The position numbers and the translations under genes are program-made. DNA of 64,000 nt, taken from contig DASZRK010000080.1 of the NCBI GenBank assembly GCA_035549195.1, positions 100,376-164,375 on the forward strand, in the 5' to 3' direction. Below, piece after piece: positions 13,836 through 30,429 of this stretch. This DNA is from a bacterium (GTDB lineage: Bacteria > Oederibacteriota > Muellerivitia > Muellerivitales > Muellerivitaceae). The first letter of the stretch is position 1, and every line of letters starts with the position of its first letter. The notes beneath the pieces were generated by a model that was not told the DNA's origin, ran no database searches, and saw only the letters and a list, made by a program, of their open reading frames with translations.

Positions 13836-13879
13836 GCCACCGTTGAAACGACGCATTTGAACGCCCTTTGGGAGAAGGA

Positions 13880-16183
13880 ATGGACCTTCATCAACTGCTC
13901 TATTCCATGGTGGAAAAGAAGGCCTCGGACGTCCACTTAAAGGCGGGCGCCTTTCCTCTTTTCCGTATCGACGGTGACCTGACCCCCCAAGGCGAGACCC
14001 TCCTGACCTCCCAAGATCTTGCCGAGATCGCCTCCTACCTGATGGATGAAAAGCAACAAAAGTTGTTCTTTGAGGACCACCATGAGGTGGATCTGGCCTA
14101 TGCGGTGGAGGGATTGGCCCGGTTCCGGACCAATGCCATGTGGCAGAGAGGCCTTCCTGAGATCATCATGCGGGTCATTCCCCAACGGATCCCGAGGATC
14201 GAGGACATCAATATGCCCACGGCGGTCCTCAAGCAGATCGCCCTGGAACAGCGCGGCCTCATCCTGGTGGTCGGCATCACAGGATCGGGGAAATCGACCA
14301 CCCTGGCTTCCCTCATCAACGAGATGAATACCAACCGGGCGGCCCACATCGTCACGATCGAGGACCCCATCGAATTCGTCCATCCGGACAAGAAGTCCAG
14401 CATCACCCAACGCGAGGTCGGGCTGGACACGGAAAGTTTCAAGGCTGCCCTGAAATATGTCCTGCGGCAGGACCCAGATATCATCCTCATTGGTGAGATG
14501 CGTGATACGGAAACGGTCTCGGCGGCCATTTCCGCGGCCGAAACAGGCCATTTGGTCCTTTCCACTCTGCACACATTGGACACGGTCCAGACCATCGAGC
14601 GCATCCTGGACTTTTTCCAGCCGGAGCAGCAGAACCAGATCCGGGTCCAATTATCAGGTACCCTGCGGGCGGTCATTTCCCAACGTTTGGTCAATAAGGC
14701 CGATGGCGTTGGCGTGGTCCCGGCCTGCGAGATCATGATCGTTACCCCGACCATCAAATCCCTCATTGCGGAAGGGAAGGTCTCATCGATCCGTCAGTTC
14801 ATAGCGGAAGGGAACAGCCAATATGGCATGCAGACCTTCGACCAGTCCCTCATTCAATTGGTCCGTTCCGGGATGATCACGAGGGAAAGCGCCTTGGAGC
14901 AGGCTTCTTCCCCTAGCGAGATCGACCTTGGGCTCAAGGGTATTTCGTCCTCCAAGGCCTCGGCCCAATCCCTGATCTCCCAAATGGAAAATTCCCAACA
15001 AAAGGAACGGCTTTCGGGTTGGTTGCGGAAGGCACAGGATTACTTCGATAAGCGGCGCTATGACGAGGCGAGGGGCGAATTGAAGCGGGTCCTTCAAGAG
15101 GTTCCCGATCATAAGGAAGCCAATGTCCTGATGGCGAAAATCCGGGAAATGGATGACAAGACCGAAAAAAAGAAGGACGCGACTTCCAACATCAAAGCCG
15201 GTCTCCAAATGTACCGGGAAGGGAAACACCAAGCCGCGATCATTGAATTCCAAAAAGCCTTGGAGGTCGACTCGGAGAACAAGCAGGCGCAGGGATATCT
15301 GAAGGCCATCCAAGAGGAGATGGAGAATCGATCCAAGGCTCGGGAGTTCTATCAAGCCGCCCTCAATGCCCAGAGCCAAAATGATTTTGCGGGAGCTTTG
15401 GCGTTCGTTGAGCAGGCCTTGATGGTGGATCCGGAGAACGAACAGGCCCGGGTCCTTCAAAGGAACATGAAGACCGCCCTCCAAAAGGAACAAGCCAAGG
15501 TCAAGGCGGATGGTTACAACCAGTCGGCCATTGAACTTTACAAGGCGGGGGATCTCTTGGGGGCCCTGGTTTCTTGGAACAAAGCTTATGACATCAATTC
15601 GGATTTGGAGGATGTGGCCCGATACCTCCAGCAAGGCATCGCCAAATTGCTATCCTTCGGCGTGGATGGTTTGGACGGAAATCCCGAAAAGGACCAGGTC
15701 CTGGCCCTTTTCGAGCAGGGGGTGCGGTCCTATGTGCGCAGCGACTTCCAGACCGCCATTGATTTCTTCAAGAAGGCCCTGACGAAGGCGGAAGGGAATG
15801 CCTATTTGAACGCGTACCTTCAAAAATCGACCCAAATGCTGGAGCAGCAGATCGTCGAGATCGTCCAGGAGGCGGGCCGTTCCTTCCAAATGGGCGATCT
15901 GGTCACGGCCCAAAAAGAATATACCAAGACCTTGAGGCTGTCCCCGGGGCATCCCGAAGCCATCCAACAGCTCGGGGTGGTGAAGGGCGCCATCCAACAG
16001 GCGGTCGAAAAATTCTACAACGACGGCAGACAAGCCTTTGATTCCAACAACCTGGACCAGGCCATGCGGATCTGGGGCCAGGCCCTTGAGCTGGATCCGT
16101 CCAATGAGCGGCTGCAAAAGAAGATCGAAGAGGCCAAGATCAAAAAGAGCACCTTGAGCGGCATCTTCTCGAAGATCAGTTAA
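13880..16183 (+). CDS. PilT-type ATPase fused to a C-terminal TPR domain
   Basis: 767 residues. Residues 1-345 are a PilT/PilU-like hexameric ATPase: ASDVHL near residue 15, Walker A GITGSGKSTT at about 132-141, DPIEF (Asp box), Walker B with LIGEMRD, and the His-box LSTLHT. PilT powers retraction of type IV pili. PilT proteins normally end near 350-380 residues; here about 390 further residues form TPR-like helix pairs (for example YDEARGELKRVLQEVPDHKEA). I start at ATG 13880, preceded by GGAGAAGGA; a TTG at 13868 is possible. No pilin or assembly genes are in the window. The TPRs may dock the chemosensory proteins encoded downstream. Confidence 0.9.
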   Translation: MDLHQLLYSMVEKKASDVHLKAGAFPLFRIDGDLTPQGETLLTSQDLAEIASYLMDEKQQKLFFEDHHEVDLAYAVEGLARFRTNAMWQRGLPEIIMRVIPQRIPRIEDINMPTAVLKQIALEQRGLILVVGITGSGKSTTLASLINEMNTNRAAHIVTIEDPIEFVHPDKKSSITQREVGLDTESFKAALKYVLRQDPDIILIGEMRDTETVSAAISAAETGHLVLSTLHTLDTVQTIERILDFFQPEQQNQIRVQLSGTLRAVISQRLVNKADGVGVVPACEIMIVTPTIKSLIAEGKVSSIRQFIAEGNSQYGMQTFDQSLIQLVRSGMITRESALEQASSPSEIDLGLKGISSSKASAQSLISQMENSQQKERLSGWLRKAQDYFDKRRYDEARGELKRVLQEVPDHKEANVLMAKIREMDDKTEKKKDATSNIKAGLQMYREGKHQAAIIEFQKALEVDSENKQAQGYLKAIQEEMENRSKAREFYQAALNAQSQNDFAGALAFVEQALMVDPENEQARVLQRNMKTALQKEQAKVKADGYNQSAIELYKAGDLLGALVSWNKAYDINSDLEDVARYLQQGIAKLLSFGVDGLDGNPEKDQVLALFEQGVRSYVRSDFQTAIDFFKKALTKAEGNAYLNAYLQKSTQMLEQQIVEIVQEAGRSFQMGDLVTAQKEYTKTLRLSPGHPEAIQQLGVVKGAIQQAVEKFYNDGRQAFDSNNLDQAMRIWGQALELDPSNERLQKKIEEAKIKKSTLSGIFSKIS

Positions 16184-17639: not shown

Positions 17640-18494
17640 ATGAAGACCGACGTCCAAGAGGATCCCTTTTTCCGACGGATCCTGGAATTGCTCCTAAGAT
17701 CGAAAGGTTTCGACGGGAACCATTACAAACCGAACTATATCAAGAGGCGCATCGCGGTGAGGATGCGCGCCATGGAGAAAGGGTCCTTCTCTGAGTATTA
17801 CCATCTCCTTCAAAGGGATCCCAAGGAGATGGGCAGGCTCCTTGAGCGGCTTACGATCCATGTGACCGAATTCTTCCGGGATCCAGAGGTCTTTCGATCG
17901 CTCCGGCAGACGGTCCTTCCGCTGTTCGCGGGGAATGTAAACAAGAACATCCGCGTCTGGTGCGCGGGCTGTAGTACGGGCGAAGAACCCTATTCGTTGG
18001 CGATCCTTTTGCAAGAGTGGGCCCCGCCCCTGGGGATGGGGTTCGGCATCCTGGGCACCGACATCGATCCGGTAAGCGTCCGGACCGCCGAAAGGGCGGA
18101 ATATCCGGTCGAGTCCGTTGCGAAATTGCCTCGTGACCAGGTGGCCCGTTGGTTCGTGAAGGAGGGCGGGCATTTGAGGATCGCCCGTGAACTCCGTCAA
18201 AAAGTGCAATTCCGGACCCATGACCTCTTGGGCCCTTGGGGCCCTTCCATGAACGAGTTCCAGATGATCTTTTGCAGGAACATGCTCATCTATTTGACGG
18301 CCGTGCAGCAACAGGGCATCTATGAAGGGTTTCACAAGGCCTTGGCGCCGGGGGGATATTTGGTCCTTGGGCTCACCGAGACTCTCTTGGGGCCTTCGCG
18401 CCGCTTCTTCAAATGTGTGGATATCCGGCATCGCATCTACAGGGCCGTCGAGAACGAGGGGACGGTCACCGGATCCGAGGGAAAAAATGGATAA
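17640..18494 (+). CDS. cheR: chemotaxis protein methyltransferase CheR
   Basis: Methylates glutamates on chemoreceptors using S-adenosylmethionine. The 284-residue protein has the N-terminal helical domain (YIKRRIAVRMRAM), HVTEFFRDPEVF, the SAM-binding motif VWCAGCSTGEEPYSLA, GTDIDP and FCRNMLIYL. It has no C-terminal TPR itself; instead the next gene encodes a TPR protein and overlaps it. It begins the che cluster. Confidence 0.95.
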   Translation: MKTDVQEDPFFRRILELLLRSKGFDGNHYKPNYIKRRIAVRMRAMEKGSFSEYYHLLQRDPKEMGRLLERLTIHVTEFFRDPEVFRSLRQTVLPLFAGNVNKNIRVWCAGCSTGEEPYSLAILLQEWAPPLGMGFGILGTDIDPVSVRTAERAEYPVESVAKLPRDQVARWFVKEGGHLRIARELRQKVQFRTHDLLGPWGPSMNEFQMIFCRNMLIYLTAVQQQGIYEGFHKALAPGGYLVLGLTETLLGPSRRFFKCVDIRHRIYRAVENEGTVTGSEGKNG

Positions 18495-19668
18495 AGCGCT
18501 GGATCACATCAATCTCGGGAAGGCTTTCGCCCTTTCCAGGCGTTTTGAGGACGCGATCATCGAATTCCGCAAGGCCTTGGAATTGAGCCCCAAGGATGGG
18601 GAGATCTTTTTCCAGTTGGCGGGTCTTTTCACCAATGTCGGGAATTATGCCGAGGCGGAGAAGTATTATCGGGAATGTCTGGAAGGGAACCCCTTGAATC
18701 TTAATGCTCATTGCAAGCTTGGGTTATTGTTGGAAGCCCAGGGCAAATATCCGGAGTCAGTGGTCGAATTCGAGAAATCCTTGGAGATCAATCCGGGAGA
18801 TGCGGGACTCTACAACAACCTGGGGAATGTGCTGTCCAAGATGGGAAAATACAAGGAGTCGGTGGGGCAATTCCGGCGCTACATCGAGATCAACCCGAGC
18901 AATGCCGAGATCTATTTCAAAATGGGCTTTGCCCTGGAGCAGGCCGGTGATGGGGATGGGGCTATCGAGGCCTATGAGCGGGCCATTTCCATCAACCCCC
19001 GGCACGCGGCGGTCCACTCCATTCTCGGGAATGTTTACTTTCAAAAAGGTCGCTACACCGAAGCCATTGAACGGTACCAGGAAGCCGCACGGATCAATCC
19101 CATGGAGCCTGAGGTCCACTTGAAATTGGGACAATGCCTGATGTCGATGGGTCAATACGACAGGGCGCTGGAGGTTTTGAAGGTCGCCTTGGAAAAAAAT
19201 CCCCGCAATGCGGAAGTCTACCTGAAACTTGGGATGATTTACGCGGGCAGGGGCCAACACGACGAGGCCATCCAAATGTACCGGAAGGTCATGGAGATCA
19301 ATCCCCGGGATGCCAGCATCCATAACGTTCTCGGTTATATCTACGATAAACAGGGTGAATTGCAAAAAGCCCTTGAGGAATACCAGATGGCGAAGGCCAT
19401 CAATCCGAACGATGTGCTTGTCCTAGACAACCTGGCCAATTTGAACTACAAAATGGGGCGTTTGGCCGAAGCGCAGCAGGAATATTCCCGTTTGCTGGAA
19501 CTGAACCCGAACCATTTGGATTCCCTGGTCAAACTGGGGAACCTGCACTTGAAGAAGGGCGACAAATCCTCCGCCCTGACCCTTTGGGAGAAGGCCCTTT
19601 CCATCGACCCTACCAACGAGATACTCAAGAACAACATCCGAATCGCCAAGGAAAATCCGATCCAATGA
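18487..19668 (+). CDS. TPR repeat protein
   Basis: 393 residues made almost wholly of about eleven 34-residue tetratricopeptide repeats, each ending in NP (INPGDAG, INPRHAA, INPNDVL). No signal peptide, so it is probably cytoplasmic. I place the start at ATG 18487, overlapping the cheR stop, with GAGGG five bases upstream. Some CheR proteins carry fused TPRs; this gene may be the split equivalent. Its stop overlaps the following CheW-like gene as ATGA. Confidence 0.88.
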   Translation: MDKALDHINLGKAFALSRRFEDAIIEFRKALELSPKDGEIFFQLAGLFTNVGNYAEAEKYYRECLEGNPLNLNAHCKLGLLLEAQGKYPESVVEFEKSLEINPGDAGLYNNLGNVLSKMGKYKESVGQFRRYIEINPSNAEIYFKMGFALEQAGDGDGAIEAYERAISINPRHAAVHSILGNVYFQKGRYTEAIERYQEAARINPMEPEVHLKLGQCLMSMGQYDRALEVLKVALEKNPRNAEVYLKLGMIYAGRGQHDEAIQMYRKVMEINPRDASIHNVLGYIYDKQGELQKALEEYQMAKAINPNDVLVLDNLANLNYKMGRLAEAQQEYSRLLELNPNHLDSLVKLGNLHLKKGDKSSALTLWEKALSIDPTNEILKNNIRIAKENPIQ

Positions 19669-20300
19669 AGCCACAAGAGAAATCCCTGGGCGAGTTGCTC
19701 CGGCAGGCCGGCAAGATCACCTTTCGGCAGATCCAGGTCGCCTTGGCCGAGCAAAAAAGGACCCACGAACCCATTGGAAAGGTCCTTGTCCGCCTCGGTT
19801 TCGTTGAGGAAAGGGATATCCTGCAGGTCATGCAAGGAATGACCGCGCTCACCTTCCGGGTGGCGAGCGAGTGGTTCGGCATCGAGACCTTCCGGGTCAG
19901 GGAGGTCCTTAAATACGGCGAAGTCCTGCCTTGGGACAGGTCCGCCTTGCCGTGGATCGGGACCTTCCTGTTGCGCGGGAAATCCCTGGCGGTCGTTTCT
20001 TTCCGTGCCTTTCTCGGCATGGAGCCGCCGGGAACCGCCTCCGGAACTTGGTTCGTGGTGCTTGAGCATAAGGGGCAACCCTTCATCCTCTGGGTGGATC
20101 AAGTGCGGGAAGTGGCCCGGTTCAAGATCGACCAGATCGAGCCCTTGCCGCCCTATTTACTGGGGAAAAAGAACGATTTGTATTACTGTTTGGGTAAAAT
20201 AAAGGAAGACCTTTATTCCATCATGAATCCGGATAAATTGTTCGAAGAACACGGTCTATCCTTGCCGCCCTCCGAGGTTGGTCATGCCTTCCCGTCCTGA
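19665..20300 (+). CDS. CheW-like protein with N-terminal pilus/secretion-ATPase (GspE-N/MshEN-like) domain
   Basis: 211 residues in two parts. Residues 1-60 (LGELLRQAGKITFRQIQVALAEQ, then IGKVLVRLGFVEERDILQVM) resemble the helical N-terminal domain of type II secretion and type IV pilus assembly ATPases, a region known to bind c-di-GMP in MshE-type proteins. Residues about 65-190 resemble a CheW domain: FGIETFRVREVLKYGEVLPW, LLRGKSLAVVSFRAFLGM, FILWVDQVREVARF. The usual VxGxxxLRG stretch is weakly kept. Translationally coupled to the TPR gene before it and overlapping the TPR gene after it. The two-domain reading is by eye. Confidence 0.65.
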   Translation: MKPQEKSLGELLRQAGKITFRQIQVALAEQKRTHEPIGKVLVRLGFVEERDILQVMQGMTALTFRVASEWFGIETFRVREVLKYGEVLPWDRSALPWIGTFLLRGKSLAVVSFRAFLGMEPPGTASGTWFVVLEHKGQPFILWVDQVREVARFKIDQIEPLPPYLLGKKNDLYYCLGKIKEDLYSIMNPDKLFEEHGLSLPPSEVGHAFPS

Positions 20301-22497
20301 AACCAAGACACTGCGTGAGATGGCCAATGGAAGCGATCAGGGTGACGCCTCCACCCACAATAACCTGGGTGTTTTTTACTATTCCAAGGGGATGTATGCG
20401 GAAGCTGTCAAGGAGTTCAAAACGGCCCTTGAGGTGGACCCCGAGAACCCGCAAGCCCAGGAGAATTTGAAGGCCGTTAACCGCCAAACCGGGCTCCTGG
20501 ACCGCTCGGTGGAAGCCTACCGCAAATCCATCCAGATGTTCCCCCAGGATGCCGAAGCCCATTACAACCTCGCGGGTGCGCTGCGTTATCTTGGCGAGTT
20601 CGAGAGGGCGGCCGAGGAATACCGAAGGGCTTTGGACCTGAACCCGGACCATCCTTACGCCCGGAACTATCTGGGGATCGCTTACAAATGCCTGGGGCGT
20701 TTCGATGATGCCATGGTCGAGTTCAGGACGGCCATCGACAAGAACCCCTTTTTCGCCGACCTCCACAATAACCTGGGCGAGATCTACTACAAGAAGGCGA
20801 TGATCAACGAGAGCATGATCGAGTTCAAGAAGGCGATCTCCTTGAACCCCGAATACGCCACCGCTCATTACAATTTGAGCTTTGTCTATGGCGACAAGAA
20901 CATGATCGAAGAGGCGGAACGGGAGTTCAAAAAGGCGGCCGAACTCAACCCGAATTTCGGGCAAGGCGCCCAAGCCCTCTTGACCATCGACCGTCCGAAG
21001 TCGCTCGAGGAGAAAATGGCGGAAAAATTGGCCGCCCAACCGCAAGGCCCAAGCGGCGTGGAGACCTACCTGAGCCTGGCCTCCGCTTATCGGGGGAAAG
21101 GCCTCATGGACGAGGCCGTTCGTGAATACAAAAGGGCGATCGAGGCCATGCCGGGGGAGGAAAGGCTTTATCGGGCCCTGGGTGAGGTCTATCTACTGAA
21201 AGGCCAGCTGGAGGACTCCCTCATTGCCTCCCAGAGGGCCATCCAATTGGCGCCCCAGGTAGTCGAGAACTACATCCAGGCGGGGATCGCGTTGCGGGAA
21301 CTGAATCGCACCGACCAGGCGGCGGACCACCTTCAAAAAGCCATTGATCTGGTGCCAGGTTCGAGCATGGCCCATTTCGAGCTCGGGGTGACCTATTTCA
21401 AGATGGGAGAAAGCGAAAAAGCGACCCAACAGGTGCGCCAAGCACTCGAGATCGATCCCCAGAATGCCGAGGCCCACTACTATCTCGGTGTCTATTACTA
21501 CAAGGTCAGCCTTTTTGACGAGGCCATCCGGGAGATATCCCAGGCCGTGGAGTTGAACGTCTCCATTGCGTCGAGCGCCGAAGCCCTGACCTACCTGGGA
21601 CTCGCCTTGGCGGATAAGGGACGTTTCGAAGAGGCCATTGCCGAGTACAAAAAGGCCATGGAGTTCGATCCCAAGAATCCCATCATCCATAACAGCCTAG
21701 GTGTGGCCTACAAGAACGCCGGGATGATCCCGGAAGCGCTCAAACATTACCAACAGGCCATCGATCTGAACCCCAATTATGCCAAGGCCTTCAACAACCT
21801 GGGGGTGGTCCATTTCAAACAAGGTCATTACGAGAAGGCCATTGAGGCCTTCAAACGGGCGGTGGCCATCGAGCCCGATTACAAAACCGCCCAGAACAAC
21901 CTTCAAGTGGCCATGAAGAAGAAAAGCGCCTTGTCCGAGGCTTCGGAGCAATTGATCAAGCAGATCATGGCCGATCCCGAGAATCCGGCGCTCCATTTCA
22001 ACTTGGGGTCCCTTTACAAGACCACGGGGCAATACGCGGAAGCGGTCCGCGAGTTCCAGGAAACCATCCATCTCACCCCCAAGAACCAAGAAGCATTGAC
22101 CAGCTTGGGAGAGGCTTATCTCCAAATGGAATCCTTGGACGAGGCGGTCAAGATCCTGGCGCGGGCGGTATCCTGTGACCCGAAATTCCCCGAAGCCCAT
22201 CTTCAACTGAGCAAGGTCTACATCCGGCGCCAGTGGTGGGATGAGGCCCTGGTTGAATTGAAAAAGACCCAGGAACTGCGTCCGGAGCTCTCCGAGATCC
22301 ATTTTCATCTTGGGCAGGTCTATCGCTCGAAGAGCTGGTGGGATGAAGCGATCCAAGAGTTCCAGAAATACCTGGACTCGTCCCAGCCTGATGAGGAAAA
22401 AGTCCTTCAATGCATCGACGCGATCCAACAGGTCCAGGCTTGGAAAAAGGAACTTCAAGTCTCGCCGAGCGCCAGCGTCTCGAAACTCATCAAATAG
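20284..22497 (+). CDS. long TPR repeat protein
   Basis: 737 residues with close to twenty tetratricopeptide repeats in at least two blocks separated by a non-repeat linker near residues 235-255 (EEKMAEKLAAQPQG) and another near 540-560. Repeats typically read HYNLGVAYKNAGMIPEALKHYQQAI with NP ends. No signal peptide. ATG 20284 is preceded by GAGG at six bases; it overlaps the CheW-like hybrid by 17 bases. As with the other TPR protein of the cluster, it probably serves as a scaffold. The Tyr and Lys-rich repeats show no catalytic motif. Confidence 0.88.
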   Translation: MPSRPETKTLREMANGSDQGDASTHNNLGVFYYSKGMYAEAVKEFKTALEVDPENPQAQENLKAVNRQTGLLDRSVEAYRKSIQMFPQDAEAHYNLAGALRYLGEFERAAEEYRRALDLNPDHPYARNYLGIAYKCLGRFDDAMVEFRTAIDKNPFFADLHNNLGEIYYKKAMINESMIEFKKAISLNPEYATAHYNLSFVYGDKNMIEEAEREFKKAAELNPNFGQGAQALLTIDRPKSLEEKMAEKLAAQPQGPSGVETYLSLASAYRGKGLMDEAVREYKRAIEAMPGEERLYRALGEVYLLKGQLEDSLIASQRAIQLAPQVVENYIQAGIALRELNRTDQAADHLQKAIDLVPGSSMAHFELGVTYFKMGESEKATQQVRQALEIDPQNAEAHYYLGVYYYKVSLFDEAIREISQAVELNVSIASSAEALTYLGLALADKGRFEEAIAEYKKAMEFDPKNPIIHNSLGVAYKNAGMIPEALKHYQQAIDLNPNYAKAFNNLGVVHFKQGHYEKAIEAFKRAVAIEPDYKTAQNNLQVAMKKKSALSEASEQLIKQIMADPENPALHFNLGSLYKTTGQYAEAVREFQETIHLTPKNQEALTSLGEAYLQMESLDEAVKILARAVSCDPKFPEAHLQLSKVYIRRQWWDEALVELKKTQELRPELSEIHFHLGQVYRSKSWWDEAIQEFQKYLDSSQPDEEKVLQCIDAIQQVQAWKKELQVSPSASVSKLIK

Positions 22498-22509: not shown

Positions 22510-22848
22510 ATGAAATTATTGGTCTGCATGATCCCGACGAAGAAGATCGAACAGGTCCGAAAGGTCCTTTGGGAATCCGGGATAAGGGGTGTGACCCTTT
22601 CCGAGGCCTCCGGTTATGGCTATCAAAAGGTCCAGGTGGATTCACTTCGGGGAGGGGATTACAAGGTCCAATATCAACCCCGTGTCCGGCTGGAGATCGC
22701 CCTTCCGGATGAGGAGATCGAGGCGGTGGTGGACCTGCTCCTCGAGACCGTGCGGACCGGGCGGATCGGGGACGGCAAGTTCTTTATCCTCCCCTTGGAC
22801 GAGGTGATCCGGGTCCGGACCGGGGAACGGGGAGAAATGGCCCTTTAG
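22510..22848 (+). CDS. P-II family signal protein (GlnB/GlnK-like)
   Basis: 112 residues, the normal length. P-II trimers sense 2-oxoglutarate and ATP/ADP and signal by binding partner proteins. The sequence aligns end to end with GlnB: start MKLLVCMIP, SEASGYGYQKVQVDSLRGGDYKVQY (T-loop with Tyr51, the uridylylation position in E. coli), RLEIALPDEEIEAVVDLLLETV, TGRIGDGKFFILPLDEVIRVRTGERG. It differs from GlnB at several T-loop positions. No glutamine synthetase, amtB or uridylyltransferase gene is nearby; it sits between a TPR gene and cheY, twelve bases after the former. Confidence 0.88.
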   Translation: MKLLVCMIPTKKIEQVRKVLWESGIRGVTLSEASGYGYQKVQVDSLRGGDYKVQYQPRVRLEIALPDEEIEAVVDLLLETVRTGRIGDGKFFILPLDEVIRVRTGERGEMAL

Positions 22849-22946: not shown

Positions 22947-23309
22947 GTGGCTCAACGGGTCATGCTGGTGGACGATGCGTCCTTTATGCGGATGATGCTC
23001 AAGAACATCCTGGTGGGCGCGGGTTACGAGGTCGCCGGAGAGGCCGAGAACGGCGCGAAGGCCATCGAACAGTTCAAGGCCCTGAAACCCGACCTGGTGA
23101 TCATGGACATCATCATGCCGGAAATGGGCGGGATCGACGCGGTCAAGGAGATCGTCAAATTGAACCCGTCGGCCAAGGTCCTGATGTGCAGCTCCATGGG
23201 CCAACAGTCCCTGGTGGTGGAGGCGATCCAAGCCGGGGCCAAGGATTTCATCGTCAAACCCTTCCAACCCTCGAATGTCCTGGAAGCGGTCAAGAAGGTC
23301 ATCGGCTGA
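22947..23309 (+). CDS. cheY: chemotaxis response regulator CheY (first copy)
   Basis: A single receiver domain, 120 residues. Acidic pocket Asp9/Asp10, phosphoacceptor Asp54 in VIMDIIMP, Ser/Thr at CSSMGQQS, and Lys in IVKPFQP. The MGQQS...AIQAGAKDF segment is the form seen in Firmicutes and Thermotoga CheY. GTG start with TTTGGAGG seven bases upstream. Followed directly by a cheC phosphatase gene. Confidence 0.94.
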   Translation: MAQRVMLVDDASFMRMMLKNILVGAGYEVAGEAENGAKAIEQFKALKPDLVIMDIIMPEMGGIDAVKEIVKLNPSAKVLMCSSMGQQSLVVEAIQAGAKDFIVKPFQPSNVLEAVKKVIG

Positions 23310-23335: not shown

Positions 23336-23974
23336 TTGGGCGCGGAGAAACCCCTTTTCAACGATTTTCAACTGGATGCCCTCCGCGAGATCGGCAATGT
23401 CGGGGCCGGGAACGCGGCGACCGCCCTTTCCCAAATGGTCGGCCGACGGGTCGATATGTCGGTCACCAAGGTCCTGGTCCTCAAAACGGAGGATATCGGG
23501 GAATTCCTCGGCGGGGTGCAGCAGAACGTGGCGGCCGTCCATATGCCCGTCTATGGTGACCTTTGTGGGGTGGCCCTGATCCTATTTCCCCTGGAAAAGG
23601 TCATGGACCTATCCGCGATGTTGGTGGGTCAACGGGATGCCGACCCTTTCCATCTTTCCGAGATCGGTCAATCCGCCCTGAAGGAACTGGGCAGCATCCT
23701 CACCGGGGCCTATCTGAGCGCCTTGTTCCGGATGGTCCATGTCCAGATGATCCATGGGGTCCCGCACCTGGTGCTGGACATGGCCCAGGCCGTCCTGGAC
23801 ACGGTCCTTGTTGAGCTCGATCAAAAGGATGATGTGGCCATCTTGATCGAGACCGAATTCATGGAGAGCAACGATCAATTGACCGGAAGCTTTTTCCTGC
23901 TCCCAGAGGCGGGGTCCTTGAAGAGACTGTTCTCTTCTTTGGCCCGGTCCCTCGGACTTCCCGAAAATGACTGA
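23336..23974 (+). CDS. cheC: CheY-P phosphatase CheC (first copy), one active site altered
   Basis: 212 residues with the CheC/FliY internal duplication. Site 1 reads DALREIGN (Asp14, Glu18, Asn21), matching the D/S-x3-E-x2-N phosphatase signature. Site 2 reads SALKELGS (Ser113, Glu117, Ser120): the asparagine is serine, so this half may be inactive. The start is TTG 23336, fixed by a strong AAGGAGGAG ribosome site at 23325-23333. It overlaps cheD by eight bases, consistent with CheC-CheD interaction. Confidence 0.9.
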   Translation: MGAEKPLFNDFQLDALREIGNVGAGNAATALSQMVGRRVDMSVTKVLVLKTEDIGEFLGGVQQNVAAVHMPVYGDLCGVALILFPLEKVMDLSAMLVGQRDADPFHLSEIGQSALKELGSILTGAYLSALFRMVHVQMIHGVPHLVLDMAQAVLDTVLVELDQKDDVAILIETEFMESNDQLTGSFFLLPEAGSLKRLFSSLARSLGLPEND

Positions 23975-24452
23975 GGGGCCGATCGCGGTCGGTATCGCTG
24001 ATTTCAGGGTTGGATCGGAACCACAGAACCTGATGATCTACGGGCTCGGATCCTGTGTGGGCGTGGCCCTTTATGATCCCGCCGTCCGCTCCGGGGGGTT
24101 GGCGCATGTGATGCTCCCATCCAGTCGGCTCAGTTCGAAGGTCCACTTGCCCGGGAAATTCGCGGACACCGCCGTTCCGGCCCTTGTGGAAGGATTGCTC
24201 CGGCAAGGCGCGGTCCGGGAGCGTTTGGTGGCCAAATTGGTCGGTGGCGCCAACATGTTCTCTTTCCTCCCCCAGGCCACAGTCTCCATTGGGGTCCGGA
24301 ATGCCGCTGCGGTCCGTGAGAAACTCACCGAGATGGGGATCCCCATCTTAGCCGAGCGGACCGGAGGCGATCAGGGGCGGACGATCCTTTTCGACCTGAA
24401 GGACGGGCGCCTGGAGATACGAAGATTGAACCGTTCCAGTGAATGGATCTAA
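23967..24452 (+). CDS. cheD: chemoreceptor glutamine deamidase CheD
   Basis: 161 residues. Deamidates receptor glutamines and binds CheC. The Cys-His-Thr triad is visible: GLGSCVGVAL (Cys), GGLAHVMLP (His), and FADTAVPALV (Thr). GGANMF and the IGVRNAAAVRE segment are also typical. It overlaps cheC. Confidence 0.94.
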   Translation: MTEGPIAVGIADFRVGSEPQNLMIYGLGSCVGVALYDPAVRSGGLAHVMLPSSRLSSKVHLPGKFADTAVPALVEGLLRQGAVRERLVAKLVGGANMFSFLPQATVSIGVRNAAAVREKLTEMGIPILAERTGGDQGRTILFDLKDGRLEIRRLNRSSEWI

Positions 24453-24463
24453 AGGGGAGACCT

Positions 24464-24982
24464 GTGCCGGAAAGTATTTCAACGGTCCCATCATCCGCGG
24501 GTGCCCAGTGGGTCATCTTCCAGCTTTCGGCTTGCGAGCTGGCGCTCCCCATCCAACGCTTGCGGGAGATCATACGCCCGGGGGAGATGACTTTGGTCCC
24601 CAAGGCTCCACCTGCGGTCGTGGGCGTCATCAATCTTCGGGGGCGGGTGCTTCCGGTGGTCGATCTCCGGCGTGCCTTCAAAATGCCGGTCCTGGACCCG
24701 ACGGATGATTCCCGGATCCTCGTCGTCGAATTGGGGACCCAATCGGTGGGATTCCTGGTGGACCGCGTCCTGGAGGTCCTCAGGGCCCCCGAGGACGCCT
24801 TGGAATCGCCCCCAGGTTCGATCCTTGAAATCGGTATGGAATTCATCCTGAAAACATTAAAATTGGGCAAAAGGACCATCGTGTTCCTGGACCTGGACCA
24901 GGTCTTTGGGCAAGCCGGTTGGGAACGTTTTTGGGGGAAAGAACGGGGTAACCCGATGATCGGGAGCGCTCGTGGGGCATAA
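24464..24982 (+). CDS. cheW: chemotaxis coupling protein CheW
   Basis: About 172 residues. Links receptors to CheA. Typical CheW blocks: WVIFQLSACELALPIQRLREI, PAVVGVINLRGRVLPVVDLR, VGFLVDRVLEVLR. The GTG at 24464 follows AAAGGGGAG and gives a clean start 11 bases after cheD; an ATG at 24443 in frame would overlap cheD by ten bases. The 3' end overlaps the second cheY by 11 bases. Confidence 0.92.
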   Translation: MPESISTVPSSAGAQWVIFQLSACELALPIQRLREIIRPGEMTLVPKAPPAVVGVINLRGRVLPVVDLRRAFKMPVLDPTDDSRILVVELGTQSVGFLVDRVLEVLRAPEDALESPPGSILEIGMEFILKTLKLGKRTIVFLDLDQVFGQAGWERFWGKERGNPMIGSARGA

Positions 24983-25337
24983 GATCATGTTCGTGGACGA
25001 TTCGTCCTTCATGCGGTCCCTTTTAAAGGGGATCATCCTGAAGGACGGTTTCGAGCTTGCCGGTGAAGCCGAGAACGGCCGGGACGCGGTCGAGCTTTAC
25101 AAGAAGATCCGACCGGACCTGGTGACGATGGACATCGTCATGCCGGACATGGACGGGATCGAGGCGGTCAAAACCATCCGGTCCTTCGATCCCGAGGCTC
25201 GGATCATCATGGTAAGCGCCATGGGCCAGCAAAGCATGGTGATCGATTCGATCCAAGCCGGTGCCCGTGACTTCATCATCAAGCCATTCCAACCCCCAAG
25301 GGTCCATGAGGCCCTTCGGCGGGTCATGGGCGGTTAA
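24972..25337 (+). CDS. cheY: chemotaxis response regulator CheY (second copy)
   Basis: 121 residues, a receiver domain very similar to the first CheY: Asp9/Asp10, Asp54 in VTMDIVMP, SAMGQQS, and IIKPFQP. The GTG start lies within the end of cheW. It probably arose by duplication. Two CheYs with two CheCs suggest separate output branches or one regulator acting as a phosphate sink. Confidence 0.93.
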   Translation: MGHKIMFVDDSSFMRSLLKGIILKDGFELAGEAENGRDAVELYKKIRPDLVTMDIVMPDMDGIEAVKTIRSFDPEARIIMVSAMGQQSMVIDSIQAGARDFIIKPFQPPRVHEALRRVMGG

Positions 25338-25359: not shown

Positions 25360-26445
25360 ATGCCTTCTTCGCTTCCTCCAACCATCCGTGTCCTCATCGT
25401 CGACGACTCCTTTTTCATGAGGAAGGTCCTGAAGGACCTTTTGTCCGAATCGGCCCCCCAGATCGAGGTGATCGGCACCGCTTCCGACGGTCAAGAGGGC
25501 TTGGAAAAGACAAGGCGCCTCAAGCCGGACGTCGTGACCTTGGATTTTGAGATGCCGAAGTTGAACGGATTGGACGCCCTGCGTGCCATCATGGCCGAAT
25601 GCCCGACCCCGGTCATCATGGTCTCCAGCCATACGGCAAAAGGGACCGAGACCGCCCTGAAGGCCCTCGAACTGGGTGCGGTGGATTGCGTGGCGAAACC
25701 ATCGGGAAGGGCCTTGGAAAACATCCGGCTCCTGGAGCCGGAATTGGTCGAGAAGATAAAGGTCGCTTCCATCAGTAAGCCGGTCGCCCGGTCCCCGGAG
25801 GCCCCTGGGACCGAACGAACGAGAATCCCTAAGATCCCGCCCAGCCCGCTCGAACGTCCCGCGACCTTCCTGGTGGGAGTCGCATCTTCGACGGGAGGGC
25901 CCAAGGCCCTCCACGAACTTTTTGAAGGGGTGAAAACCCACCCGACGGCCTCTTTCGTCGTGGTCCAGCATATTTCATCGGGCTTTACCCAAGCCTTGGC
26001 CCGTCGTTTGTCCGAAGTCACCGACGTTCAGGTGGAAGAAGCGATTCATGGGGGCGTTCTCTTGGGGGGAAGGGCTTATGTGGCCCCGACCGGGACGCAT
26101 TTGATCATTGAAGGATCGCCGGGGCGGTTCCGGTTCAACTTCGACGACCAACCCCCGCGACTGGGTGTGAAGCCTTGTGCCGATCTCATGTTGACCTCGA
26201 TGGCCAAGGCGACTCGGGGCCAGTGTTTGGGCATCGTCTTGACGGGCATGGGAAAGGACGGAACCCTGGGTTTGGGGGCCATTCAAAAGGCGGGTGGCAC
26301 AACCTTCGCCCAGGACGCAGAAAGCTGCGTGGTTTACGGGATGCCGAAATCGGCGGTCGAAGCGGGGGTCGTCACCCGACAGGTCCCCCTGGCGGCCATG
26401 GCCGATGAGATCAATATGGTCCTTGTGAAAACCAAGGGGTTTTGA
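25360..26445 (+). CDS. cheB: chemotaxis methylesterase CheB
   Basis: 361 residues: a receiver domain (Asp14/15, phosphoacceptor Asp62 in TLDFEMP, SSHTAKG) followed by a methylesterase domain with catalytic Ser in ASSTGGPKAL, His in VQHISSGFT and Asp in LTGMGKDGTLG. Removes methyl groups added by CheR. GGAAGGTC precedes ATG 25360. About 150 bases separate it from cheA, where a promoter-like element is seen. Confidence 0.95.
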   Translation: MPSSLPPTIRVLIVDDSFFMRKVLKDLLSESAPQIEVIGTASDGQEGLEKTRRLKPDVVTLDFEMPKLNGLDALRAIMAECPTPVIMVSSHTAKGTETALKALELGAVDCVAKPSGRALENIRLLEPELVEKIKVASISKPVARSPEAPGTERTRIPKIPPSPLERPATFLVGVASSTGGPKALHELFEGVKTHPTASFVVVQHISSGFTQALARRLSEVTDVQVEEAIHGGVLLGGRAYVAPTGTHLIIEGSPGRFRFNFDDQPPRLGVKPCADLMLTSMAKATRGQCLGIVLTGMGKDGTLGLGAIQKAGGTTFAQDAESCVVYGMPKSAVEAGVVTRQVPLAAMADEINMVLVKTKGF

Positions 26446-26565: not shown

Positions 26566-26571
26566 TAAAAT
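26566..26571 (+). promoter_or_regulatory. -10-like box before cheA
   Basis: TAAAAT, followed at a suitable distance by AAAGGGGT and the ATG at 26597. No convincing -35 was found. The box overlaps an upstream in-frame ATG at 26570, which argues against that ATG being the start. Confidence 0.35.
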
Positions 26572-26596
26572 GGCCGAAGTCCTCAAAGGGGTCGGC

Positions 26597-28654
26597 ATGA
26601 ACACGTCGGATTACAAGGAACTGTTCCTTTCGGAGGCCAGGGAATACCTGTCGAACCTCAACAATTCCCTGGTCCAACTGGAGAAGGATCCGGCCCAGGG
26701 TGAACCGATCAAGGAGGTCTTTCGGTCCGCCCACACACTCAAGGGCATGGCGGCGACCATGGGATACGAACCCATGGTCCGATTGACCCATGAGATGGAA
26801 TCGGTCCTGGATCCGATCCGTTCCGGGAAGGAAGAGTTGAGCACCCGGCTCATGGATGCCCTTTTCCTCTGCCTGGATCAACTGGAAAAATGGGTGGATG
26901 CACTTTCCAGGCAGGATTTCATCGAGGAGGAGTCCCTGGAAGAGGCCATGAAAGTGCTTCGCCGGGGCGCTTCTGAAGGGGAGCCGGGACGCGCCGAGTC
27001 GGCCGCACCGTTGCCCGCCTTCCAGTTCTCGGCGGAAGAAACGGAGATCCTTTCGCAAGCCAAGAGGAACGGCTTTTCCATCTTGCAGGTGGCCGTCCAG
27101 CTGGTTCCGGAGTGTCAATTCAAGGAAGTCCGGGCCTTCATGGTCCTCAAAGCCATCAACGGCCTTGGGGAGATCGTCCATAGCGAACCTTCCCCCGAGG
27201 AGATCGAGAAAGGGCTTTTCAAGGACCGGTTCCTCCTGGTGGTCGTGACCGATTGCTCCGCCGAAAGGATCCGCGATGGCCTGACGGGCATCGGGGAAGT
27301 CGCTTCGGTCCGTATCGATGAATTCAAGATGGGGCCGACGGGAAAAAAAGAGCCAGCGACGGAACCGGGACACGCGTCCCCCTTGGCGGCGGAGAACGGA
27401 AAAGGCGATGTCGAGGAACGGTCCTCCTTGCTCCCGACGGTCCGCGTCCACACCACCAAACTGGATAAATTGATGGCACTGGTCCAGGAACTGGTCATTT
27501 CGAAGATCCGTTTCGAACAGATCGCATCGACCCAATCCTTGAAGGAATTGGACGGACCTCTCTCCCAACTCCATCACGTGACCGATGAGCTCCAGGACGA
27601 GATCATGAAGGTTCGTCTCATGCCGGTGAAACAGATATTCGACCGATTCCCGCGGATGGTCCGGGACCTGGCCAAAGGACTTGGAAAACAAGTCGATCTT
27701 GAGATGGACGGTGGGGAGGTCGAACTGGACAGGACGGTGCTCGAGGAAATGAGCGAACCTTTGGTCCATCTTCTCCGTAACGCCGTCGATCATGGCATCG
27801 AGGTCCCCGACTTCCGTGTCCAGGAAGGCAAAGAACCCATGGGGACCATCCGGCTCCAGGCACGTCGGGAAAGGGCTTATGTGGTCATCACCATTTCGGA
27901 CGATGGAAGGGGCATCGATCCGGACCAAGTACGCCAAAAATCGGTAGCCAAGGGCCTGCTGACCCCAGAGGATGCGGCCCGCCTGACCGATGAAGAATCC
28001 ATCCGGTTGATCGCCTTGCCGGGTTTTTCGACCCTGGACAACGCGACGCGCATTTCGGGGCGTGGGGTCGGAGTGGATGTGGCCAAGACCAAAGTGGAGG
28101 CCCTGGGAGGGACCCTGCGGATCCAAAGCAAGAAAAGTGTGGGGACCAGCTTTATCCTCCGGTTTCCGCTGACCTTGGCCATCATCAAGGCCCTGATGGT
28201 CCGCTGTGCCGGGGAGGTGTTCGCCGTTCCTGTCACCAACATCATCGAAACCCTGGATGTCCCATTGTCGGATAAGAAGGATATCCAGCAGCGACAGGCC
28301 CTGATCCTGCGGGAGGACGTGGTGCCCTACTATCCCTTGGCGGAACTCCTGGAAATGGAGGGAGACCCCGGGGACGACCCTTCGGGGCTGGAAACGGTCC
28401 TCATCGCCGAGGTCGGGGATTCCCGAGTGGGGTTGAAAGTGGACGAGGTGATCGGCCAGCAGGAGATCGCCATTAAGCCCATGGACCCGCTTTTGAAGGG
28501 GATCCGGGGTTTTTCGGGGGCCACGATCCTGGGGAATGGTAAGATAGCCCTGATCCTGGATGTGAACGGCTTGGTCGAGGATTTCAAAGATAAGCGCTTT
28601 CAGGTCGACCATAGTGACGTGGAAAAGGACCTTACCCATGCTCCCCAATCTTGA
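26597..28654 (+). CDS. cheA: chemotaxis histidine kinase CheA
   Basis: 685 residues. HPt domain at 1-110 with the phosphorylated His46 in FRSAHTLKGMA; a P2-like domain at about 140-245; dimerisation helices (LDKLMALVQELV); an ATPase domain with LLRNAVDHGIE, DDGRGID and GRGVGVDVAK; and a C-terminal CheW-like domain (AIIKALMVRCAGEVFAVPVTNI). ATG 26597 has AAAGGGGT upstream and gives the classic CheA N-terminus; ATG 26570 in frame overlaps a -10-like box. The stop overlaps the second cheC by 17 bases. Confidence 0.95.
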   Translation: MNTSDYKELFLSEAREYLSNLNNSLVQLEKDPAQGEPIKEVFRSAHTLKGMAATMGYEPMVRLTHEMESVLDPIRSGKEELSTRLMDALFLCLDQLEKWVDALSRQDFIEEESLEEAMKVLRRGASEGEPGRAESAAPLPAFQFSAEETEILSQAKRNGFSILQVAVQLVPECQFKEVRAFMVLKAINGLGEIVHSEPSPEEIEKGLFKDRFLLVVVTDCSAERIRDGLTGIGEVASVRIDEFKMGPTGKKEPATEPGHASPLAAENGKGDVEERSSLLPTVRVHTTKLDKLMALVQELVISKIRFEQIASTQSLKELDGPLSQLHHVTDELQDEIMKVRLMPVKQIFDRFPRMVRDLAKGLGKQVDLEMDGGEVELDRTVLEEMSEPLVHLLRNAVDHGIEVPDFRVQEGKEPMGTIRLQARRERAYVVITISDDGRGIDPDQVRQKSVAKGLLTPEDAARLTDEESIRLIALPGFSTLDNATRISGRGVGVDVAKTKVEALGGTLRIQSKKSVGTSFILRFPLTLAIIKALMVRCAGEVFAVPVTNIIETLDVPLSDKKDIQQRQALILREDVVPYYPLAELLEMEGDPGDDPSGLETVLIAEVGDSRVGLKVDEVIGQQEIAIKPMDPLLKGIRGFSGATILGNGKIALILDVNGLVEDFKDKRFQVDHSDVEKDLTHAPQS

Positions 28655-29252
28655 TGAGATGACACCGACCCAGGTCGATGCCATCAAAGAGGTGGGCAAT
28701 ATCGGCGCCGGTCATGGCGCGACGGCCCTGTCCCAACTGCTGGGAAAACGGATCTCCATCACGGTCCCGAAGGCGAACATCATCCCCCTTTCGGAGATCT
28801 CCCAGGTGATGGGGGATCCGAACACGCTGGTGGCGGGTTTGATCCTTTCCATCCTGGGCGATGCCACGGGGAAGATCATCCTCTTGTTCCCGCGGGATTC
28901 GGCCCTTCATTTGGCCGACATGCTCTTGAAACAGCCCCTGGGAACCAGCAAGATCCTGTCGGAGATGGGCCATTCCGCCATCAAGGAGGCAGGGAACATC
29001 TTGACCGGCGCTTACTTGAGCGCCTTGAACGAATTCCTGGGAATGCTCCTGTTGATCTCCGTGCCGACACTTGTTTTCGACATGGCGGGTGCCCTTCTTT
29101 CCACGGTGACCCAGGGCCTGGATAAGGATTCGAAGGTGATCCTCATCGAAACGCGCTTCTTGGATGATCAGCAGGAGATCGCGGGCTATTTCGTATTGGC
29201 CCCCGATAACGTTTCCTTGCGGGCCATCTTCCAGGCGATCAAGGTCAAATAG
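28638..29252 (+). CDS. cheC: CheY-P phosphatase CheC/FliY-like (second copy)
   Basis: 204 residues, internally duplicated. Both phosphatase signatures are complete: DAIKEVGN (Asp14, Glu18, Asn21) and SAIKEAGN (Ser113, Glu117, Asn120). This contrasts with the first copy. Starts within the end of cheA at ATG 28638 with AAGGA eight bases upstream. No SpoA domain follows, so it is not a FliY switch protein. Confidence 0.9.
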   Translation: MLPNLDEMTPTQVDAIKEVGNIGAGHGATALSQLLGKRISITVPKANIIPLSEISQVMGDPNTLVAGLILSILGDATGKIILLFPRDSALHLADMLLKQPLGTSKILSEMGHSAIKEAGNILTGAYLSALNEFLGMLLLISVPTLVFDMAGALLSTVTQGLDKDSKVILIETRFLDDQQEIAGYFVLAPDNVSLRAIFQAIKVK

Positions 29253-29320: not shown

Positions 29321-29356
29321 ATGGCGCTGTCGTTTATTTACTTGAGGGAACTATGA
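29321..29356 (+). CDS. possible 11-residue leader peptide
   Basis: ATG to TGA encoding MALSFIYLREL. Its stop overlaps the ATG of the GGDEF-like gene as ATGA, the same coupling used between genes elsewhere in this window. Its AGGA ribosome site would be partly inside the 29295-29316 hairpin. There is no proof that it is translated. Confidence 0.3.
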   Translation: MALSFIYLREL

Positions 29357-30429
29357 ACAGCCTGACCGATCTGCTGGGGACACTCCACAAACACTGTGGG
29401 CAGGATCCGGTCACCCCCGACGCCCTCAAGGCCTGTTGCACCGAGATCAACGGCCATTTCGGTTTCGACAGCGTCTTCCTGGCCCGGGCTGGAGCGCCGG
29501 AAGAGACCCTTTCCCCCTTGGTCCTGGAGGGAAAGGAAGAGGTCATGGAGACCTGTCTTTACCGGCTTGGCGTTGAAGAGAGGATCGCGCTCGCCAAGAC
29601 CCCCATCAAGACCTACCAGGACATGACCGGAAAGCCGGTCTTCAATAAAGCCGGATCCCTGCGGATCCAAAAACCCAACAGCGGCATTTTTCAGGTCCTT
29701 TACCACCCGGGAAAGATCTATCTGCTTTTCGGTTGTGCGCATCAGAATTCCCAAAAATACGAGAACGAGGTCTTGACCCAGTTGGGTGAGATCTGGGCTA
29801 GTTGGAACGTATTCCTCTTGGAAGCCTTGGAACGGTTCGACCATCCCAAGGCAACGCCACTGCCTCCGCCGGCTCCCCCGCCGGTCCTGGAGCCGACCCA
29901 GGGGACCCCCGAGGCGGAACCGGCCGCGCCCCACACGAACGACGGCCGGAGACCCCTGGTCTTAGTGGATGAAGAGACCCGTTTGTTCAACCGTGAATAT
30001 TTTTCGGAGTGCCTTGGTATCGAGGTGGAGAGGGCCAAGCGCTATTCCCGCAACCTGAGCCTCATGTTCTTGAGTGTTTCTCCCGTTCCCGGAAAAGGGC
30101 CAGAAGCCGCAGAAAGGAAAACGGCCACCCAGATCACCGAGATCCTGTCCAAGAGCCTGAGGCGGGTCGATATCATCTGCCGGATCGAAAAGGACAAATA
30201 CGGGCTGATCCTTCCCGATACGGCCAACAATACCTACGGCATCATCGCCAAACGGGTCTTCAAGCATTTCAAGCAGGTCATGGGGGATGCTCCCCCCATT
30301 TTCCTGAACATCAGCGCCTGCACCTTTCCCAAGCATGCGGCCGACCATATCGGCCTATTGGACAACGCCGAAAAACTACTGGCGCAGGCCAAGGATGTCG
30401 GTCCTAACAAAGCCGTTCTTCCCGAATAG
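29353..30429 (+). CDS. degenerate GGDEF-domain protein
   Basis: 358 residues. Residues 1-160 look like a GAF-type sensory domain; 165-200 is a Pro-rich linker; 205-358 follows the GGDEF fold (VDEETRLFNREYFSECLGIEVERAKRY ... RRVDIICRIEKDKYGLILPDT ... ISACTFPKHA, the last where the family has SiG..). The GG(D/E)EF signature is replaced by EKDKY at residues 279-283, so cyclic-di-GMP synthesis is not expected. It may bind nucleotide or partners. ATG 29353 is preceded by GAGGGAA. Located right after the che cluster, close to two other c-di-GMP-type proteins (PilZ genes at 44 kb). Confidence 0.8.
   Translation: MNSLTDLLGTLHKHCGQDPVTPDALKACCTEINGHFGFDSVFLARAGAPEETLSPLVLEGKEEVMETCLYRLGVEERIALAKTPIKTYQDMTGKPVFNKAGSLRIQKPNSGIFQVLYHPGKIYLLFGCAHQNSQKYENEVLTQLGEIWASWNVFLLEALERFDHPKATPLPPPAPPPVLEPTQGTPEAEPAAPHTNDGRRPLVLVDEETRLFNREYFSECLGIEVERAKRYSRNLSLMFLSVSPVPGKGPEAAERKTATQITEILSKSLRRVDIICRIEKDKYGLILPDTANNTYGIIAKRVFKHFKQVMGDAPPIFLNISACTFPKHAADHIGLLDNAEKLLAQAKDVGPNKAVLPE

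Follow-up and report, generated by a model that had tools for sequence, protein, structure and literature searches.

Chemotaxis operons across a bacterial phylum carry a divergent P-II protein

Introduction

Few signalling proteins are as widespread as P-II, whose known work is metabolic, in nitrogen and energy sensing. Energy taxis, for its part, has usually been attributed to receptors in the membrane that respond to redox or proton-motive force. We know of no che system described with a P-II subunit, and two TPR proteins of the kind found in the cluster reported here are likewise outside the textbook che set.

The nearest published case is that of Azospirillum brasilense GlnZ, a P-II protein that influences taxis and adherence, has an indirect effect on aerotaxis, and interacts with many metabolic targets, c-di-GMP enzymes being among them (PMC7646526). 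The protein studied here resembles GlnZ in being a P-II tied to taxis, but it is a separate paralogue inside a che operon, an arrangement that the available part of that source does not describe for GlnZ (PMC7646526). No description of a P-II in a che operon was found in the literature searched, outside which most subscription journals lay, and an earlier description may exist. The 'PII-like' protein BB0017 of Borrelia was considered as a counterpart and set aside, since it is a membrane protein without the ligand residues. Here, we analysed a 64,000-nucleotide stretch of bacterial DNA (the window), in which a preliminary description had noticed a P-II gene among che genes.

Results

The che cluster of the window runs on one strand in the order cheR-TPR-cheW-TPR-[P-II]-cheY-cheC-cheD-cheW-cheY-cheB-cheA-cheC, with the features listed below.

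17640..18494, +, cheR
18487..19668, +, shorter TPR protein, ~393 aa
19665..20300, +, CheW with an N-terminal extension of ~60 aa
20278..22497, +, 739-aa TPR scaffold
22510..22848, +, che-type P-II, 112 aa, PF00543, with intact ATP-site residues and a divergent T-loop
22624..22683, +, T-loop region of the P-II, residues ~39-58, QKVQVDSLRGGDYKVQYQPR; Tyr51 codon at 22660-22662; R58 replaces the canonical Lys
22947..23309, +, cheY, stand-alone receiver
23336..23974, +, cheC
23967..24452, +, cheD
24443..24982, +, cheW
24972..25337, +, second cheY
25360..26445, +, cheB
26570..28654, +, cheA
28614..29252, +, second cheC-like gene, orthologues 55-81% identical in relatives

The set of cheC, cheD, cheR, cheB, cheA, cheW and cheY is shared with the CheC/CheD/CheY adaptation systems of the Bacillus/Thermotoga type. 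The P-II gene starts 12 nt past the end of the 739-aa TPR gene and is followed by cheY after 98 nt, so that gene spacing and cluster annotation agree with the placement first proposed, between a TPR scaffold gene and cheY. The same description had seen no nitrogen-metabolism gene nearby, and among the annotated neighbours at 0 to ~34 kb we indeed found none (no amtB, glnA or glnE). A gene for a PilT/T2SSE-type ATPase with a fused TPR C-terminus (13868-16183) lies upstream of the cluster, where it is conserved in families f1 and f2. Directly downstream is a GGDEF-family gene (29353-30429) whose signature, read by eye, is CRIEKDKYGLIL instead of GGDEF, and its product is therefore probably inactive as a cyclase. 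The N-terminal extension of CheW (~60 aa, 19665-19850) resembles by eye half of an MshEN/T2SSE_N domain; this reading was dropped, as no significant Pfam match was obtained.

The product of 22510-22848 matched PF00543 over the full profile length (78 bits against a cut-off of 25, E 8e-22; Pfam), and solved P-II structures matched it at E values down to 4e-30. Its AlphaFold model had a pLDDT of 78.5, and the top Foldseek matches were P-II proteins. Translation confirmed the landmarks noticed beforehand, namely a tyrosine at residue 51, the position that it has in GlnB, and intact TGRIGDGK (83-90) and RTGERG (103-108) blocks. The protein thus matches canonical GlnB/GlnK (PF00543) in length, in predicted fold and in the TGRIGDGK and RxRTGE residues of the nucleotide site, but it scored far below the NCBIfam GlnK/GlnB equivalog cut-offs (100.7 vs 181 and 94.2 vs 202 bits), lacks the UMP-site motif and any linkage to amtB or glnA, and falls on a separate branch of the tree.

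Profile searches, from which all genome-wide statements on this organism are drawn, found seven P-II genes in the 3.2-Mb genome, with the window copy scoring lowest; the gene is thus not the only glnB, as the preliminary description had allowed that it might be. Two of the paralogues lie beside amtB and one beside glnE. Two more flank a NirA-type nitrite/sulphite reductase adjoining an assimilatory nitrate reductase-like gene, neither call reaching its NCBIfam cut-off, and the sixth adjoins a porin gene, so that five of the six sit beside nitrogen genes. These settings indicate that nitrogen control is already served elsewhere in the genome. GlnD, whose presence had been put forward as a point to check, was not detected in this genome and did not exceed the cut-off in any of the 45 phylum genomes; the sole protein with GlnD-type domains in the window's genome was GlnE. 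By eye, none of the six paralogues (L001 to L006) has a tyrosine at position 51, in keeping with the absence of GlnD. At one locus of another phylum member (G017, L156), a tandem array of at least three P-II matches fits within 1 kb, one of them without a T-loop, with a fourth match close by on that contig.

We then compared the locus across the phylum. A P-II of this type (che-P-II) was present in 27 of the 45 genomes, with identity down to ~40%, and stood directly upstream of cheY in every one of them (27/27), so its position is fixed rather than variable among relatives. By profile score, 26 of the 45 genomes reached at least 147 bits, and the best of the remaining P-IIs in the phylum stayed at or below 122 bits. 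All 26 high scorers adjoin cheY, and 25 of them also have cheD at the expected place on the same contig; in one carrier, G006, the contig ends inside the cheY next to the P-II. G012 has the 27th, a more diverged copy that also lies between cheW and cheY. The gene order of the window was repeated in six of six carriers of the same family, in a genome of the same order (G008) and in distant families; overall, the che-P-II position was fixed across ten families, and the P-II/TPR/cheY order was found in each of the nine families that have the TPR gene. These results showed that the linkage of a P-II to chemotaxis is real and old.

Outside the phylum, P-II scores in 244 genomes were at most 149.6 bits, which, judged by score, is the range of ordinary GlnB. 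A contig scan was likewise dominated by ordinary GlnB and met the cluster at one of 80 loci (L066, the contig of G034). In the phylogeny, which had been suggested as a check, the che-P-IIs branched apart from the paralogues and the outside P-IIs: a branch supported at 94/98, just below the threshold of the tool, separated all 27 from the rest, and a clade of 26 without G012 was not rejected (p 0.07).

The 739-aa TPR gene occurred in 26 of the 45 genomes, exactly those whose che-P-II has the 112-residue form, and in none of the 19 others, and che-P-II was found in 0 of the 12 genomes without cheD, both being co-occurrence counts inflated by relatedness and shared operon history, with few independent losses beneath them. 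Among the 33 genomes with cheD, six had no che-P-II (G039, G041, G010, G030, G032 and G027). The two f14 genomes, G039 and G041, have lost cheR-TPR-cheW-TPR-P-II as a block, their cluster starting at cheY with cheY to cheA kept, which indicates that the P-II and the scaffold module upstream of it move as a unit. G010, G030 and G032 have different che clusters. Could the gene be an ordinary nitrogen P-II that landed in the operon by chance and was carried along? P-II genes are short and frequently relocate, and phylum genomes contain up to 10 P-II matches each, but the position is fixed across ten families, the other P-IIs of the genome stand mostly beside nitrogen genes, the gene is missing whenever cheD is absent, and its T-loop is rewritten. 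Such a passenger origin is disfavoured, and we regard it as very improbable.

We compared 26 che-P-IIs with 93 outside P-IIs. G24, G27, T29, G35, G37, E62, G84, D88, G89, K90, R101, R103, T104 and E106 were kept in all 26. The adenine-nucleotide residues T29, G37, G87-K90, R101 and R103 are all present in the window P-II, with G87 kept in 24 of the 26. In contrast to these, K9, R38, G41, H42 and Y46 were lost in 26/26, Y46 being invariant in 93/93 outside P-IIs and a Leu in the window P-II. Other positions varied, with K58 kept in seven of the che-P-IIs, Q39 in 17 and Y51 in 16 (lost in 10). Over the T-loop (37-55), che-P-IIs shared 38% identity vs 52% for the rest of the protein, the reverse of ordinary P-IIs (87% vs 64% for the core); the most conserved part of an ordinary P-II is thus the least conserved part of a che-P-II. 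Around Tyr51, the window protein reads SLRGGDY where GlnB has ELYRGAEY. The earlier remark that this tyrosine stands exactly as in GlnB was right for its position; its GlnB-like meaning was not borne out, as the surrounding T-loop differs and the uridylylation motif is gone. With Y46 replaced by Leu, Y51 lost in 10 of 26 and no GlnD detected, Tyr51 was rejected as a credible uridylylation site, and we read it as a positional remnant.

In known P-II structures, Mg-2-oxoglutarate is held by Q39 and K58, and phosphates are contacted by R38, K90, R101 and R103. The window P-II retains Q39 and has Arg at position 58, both positions varying among relatives, so it could bind 2-oxoglutarate, with R58 as a possible stand-in for K58. 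This bears on a different account of the signal, in which the P-II is wired to chemotaxis in the same way and still senses 2-oxoglutarate, and hence carbon/nitrogen balance, rather than adenylate energy. Q39 is present in the family of the window and in 17 of 26 members, and R58 preserves the positive charge of K58. However, Q39 is replaced by His, Arg or Glu in families f3, f9 and f13, where the operon setting is unchanged, and K9, R38 and G41 are lost everywhere. Since ligand residues vary while the place in the operon stays, the conserved role should not depend on 2-oxoglutarate, and we consider this account unlikely, if worth keeping in mind. Taken together, the residues are in keeping with a protein that still binds adenylates, has a reduced or absent response to 2-oxoglutarate and has acquired a new partner for its T-loop.

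The 739-aa TPR protein is the candidate for such a partner. Among carriers, the spacing from the TPR gene to the P-II gene ranged from -4 to 105 nt, a 4-nt overlap being frequent. The AlphaFold model of the TPR protein showed two TPR superhelices and a low-confidence tail at 728-739 that is probably disordered. The extreme C-terminus, encoded at 22462-22494 of the window, has a conserved SPSA....[KR].I[KR] pattern, and the tail together with the Trp before it reads ...W..ELQVSPSASVSKLIK; across 25 sequences, Pro at -10 and the basic residues at -4 and -1 were found in 25/25 and Ile at -2 in 24/25, and the Trp at -18 lies just inside the last helix. Conservation in a tail predicted to be disordered suggests a docking motif. 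From guilt by association in the operon, we infer a contact between the P-II and the TPR protein. The divergent che-P-II of G012, whose T-loop is the most altered of all, occurs without the 739-aa TPR gene, which rules out the TPR protein as the sole partner everywhere.

Discussion

A P-II found phylum-wide in the che operon of these uncultured bacteria suggests a metabolic sensor wired into the machinery that steers movement. In the reading that we favour, with a probability of roughly 0.55, the che-P-IIs are a P-II subfamily devoted to chemotaxis, which uses the TPR scaffold to inform the array of adenylate status. This reading is based on the linkage, the co-occurrence with the TPR gene, the retained nucleotide site, the lack of a detectable GlnD, and the losses in the GlnB T-loop and the 2-oxoglutarate site. 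Mechanistically, che-P-II would be a homotrimer with ATP or ADP bound, and the bound nucleotide would set the shape of the rewritten T-loop. The loop would dock on the TPR scaffold, possibly at the conserved disordered C-terminal tail, and through the scaffold the P-II may raise or lower the output of the array, with CheR/CheW on one side and CheY/CheC/CheD on the other. As a result, steering would be gated by the energy state of the cell. A more specific version, to which we give somewhat less than even odds, is that the trimer serves as a built-in cytoplasmic ATP/ADP receptor feeding the kinase array via the TPR scaffold, was fixed in the phylum before its families split, and works largely independently of 2-oxoglutarate and uridylylation. 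The idea of a P-II that controls motility signalling was raised at the outset; its chemotaxis link stands, with the position fixed in 27/27, and the control as such is what we infer.

If a P-II is fixed in the che operon phylum-wide, it would link adenylate status to steering directly at the molecular level. The case also shows how a P-II evolves when the partners of its T-loop change and the nucleotide site stays.

Which motility apparatus is steered may differ between lineages. FlhA was found in 26 of the 45 phylum genomes, and on the same contig as the cluster in the window's genome. Six genomes with che-P-II had no FlhA match at 86-97% completeness (G015, G020, G026, G029, G034 and G037), and several flagellated genomes of the phylum were without che-P-II; the presence of the P-II therefore follows that of the che cluster and not that of the flagellum. 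The che-P-II genomes without FlhA also lend something to the proposal that the target of the protein is c-di-GMP or type IV pili instead of the che array, its place in the operon serving co-expression only. The PilT-like ATPase with TPRs and the GGDEF-like gene that flank the cluster point the same way, as do the binding of c-di-GMP enzymes by GlnZ and its effect on aerotaxis (PMC7646526). However, the PilT and GGDEF neighbours were matched only in f1 and f2, whereas the P-II/TPR/cheY order holds in nine TPR-gene families, and the GGDEF gene has, by eye, no GGDEF signature. We therefore rate that proposal as improbable. In some lineages, the che cluster may steer type IV pili.
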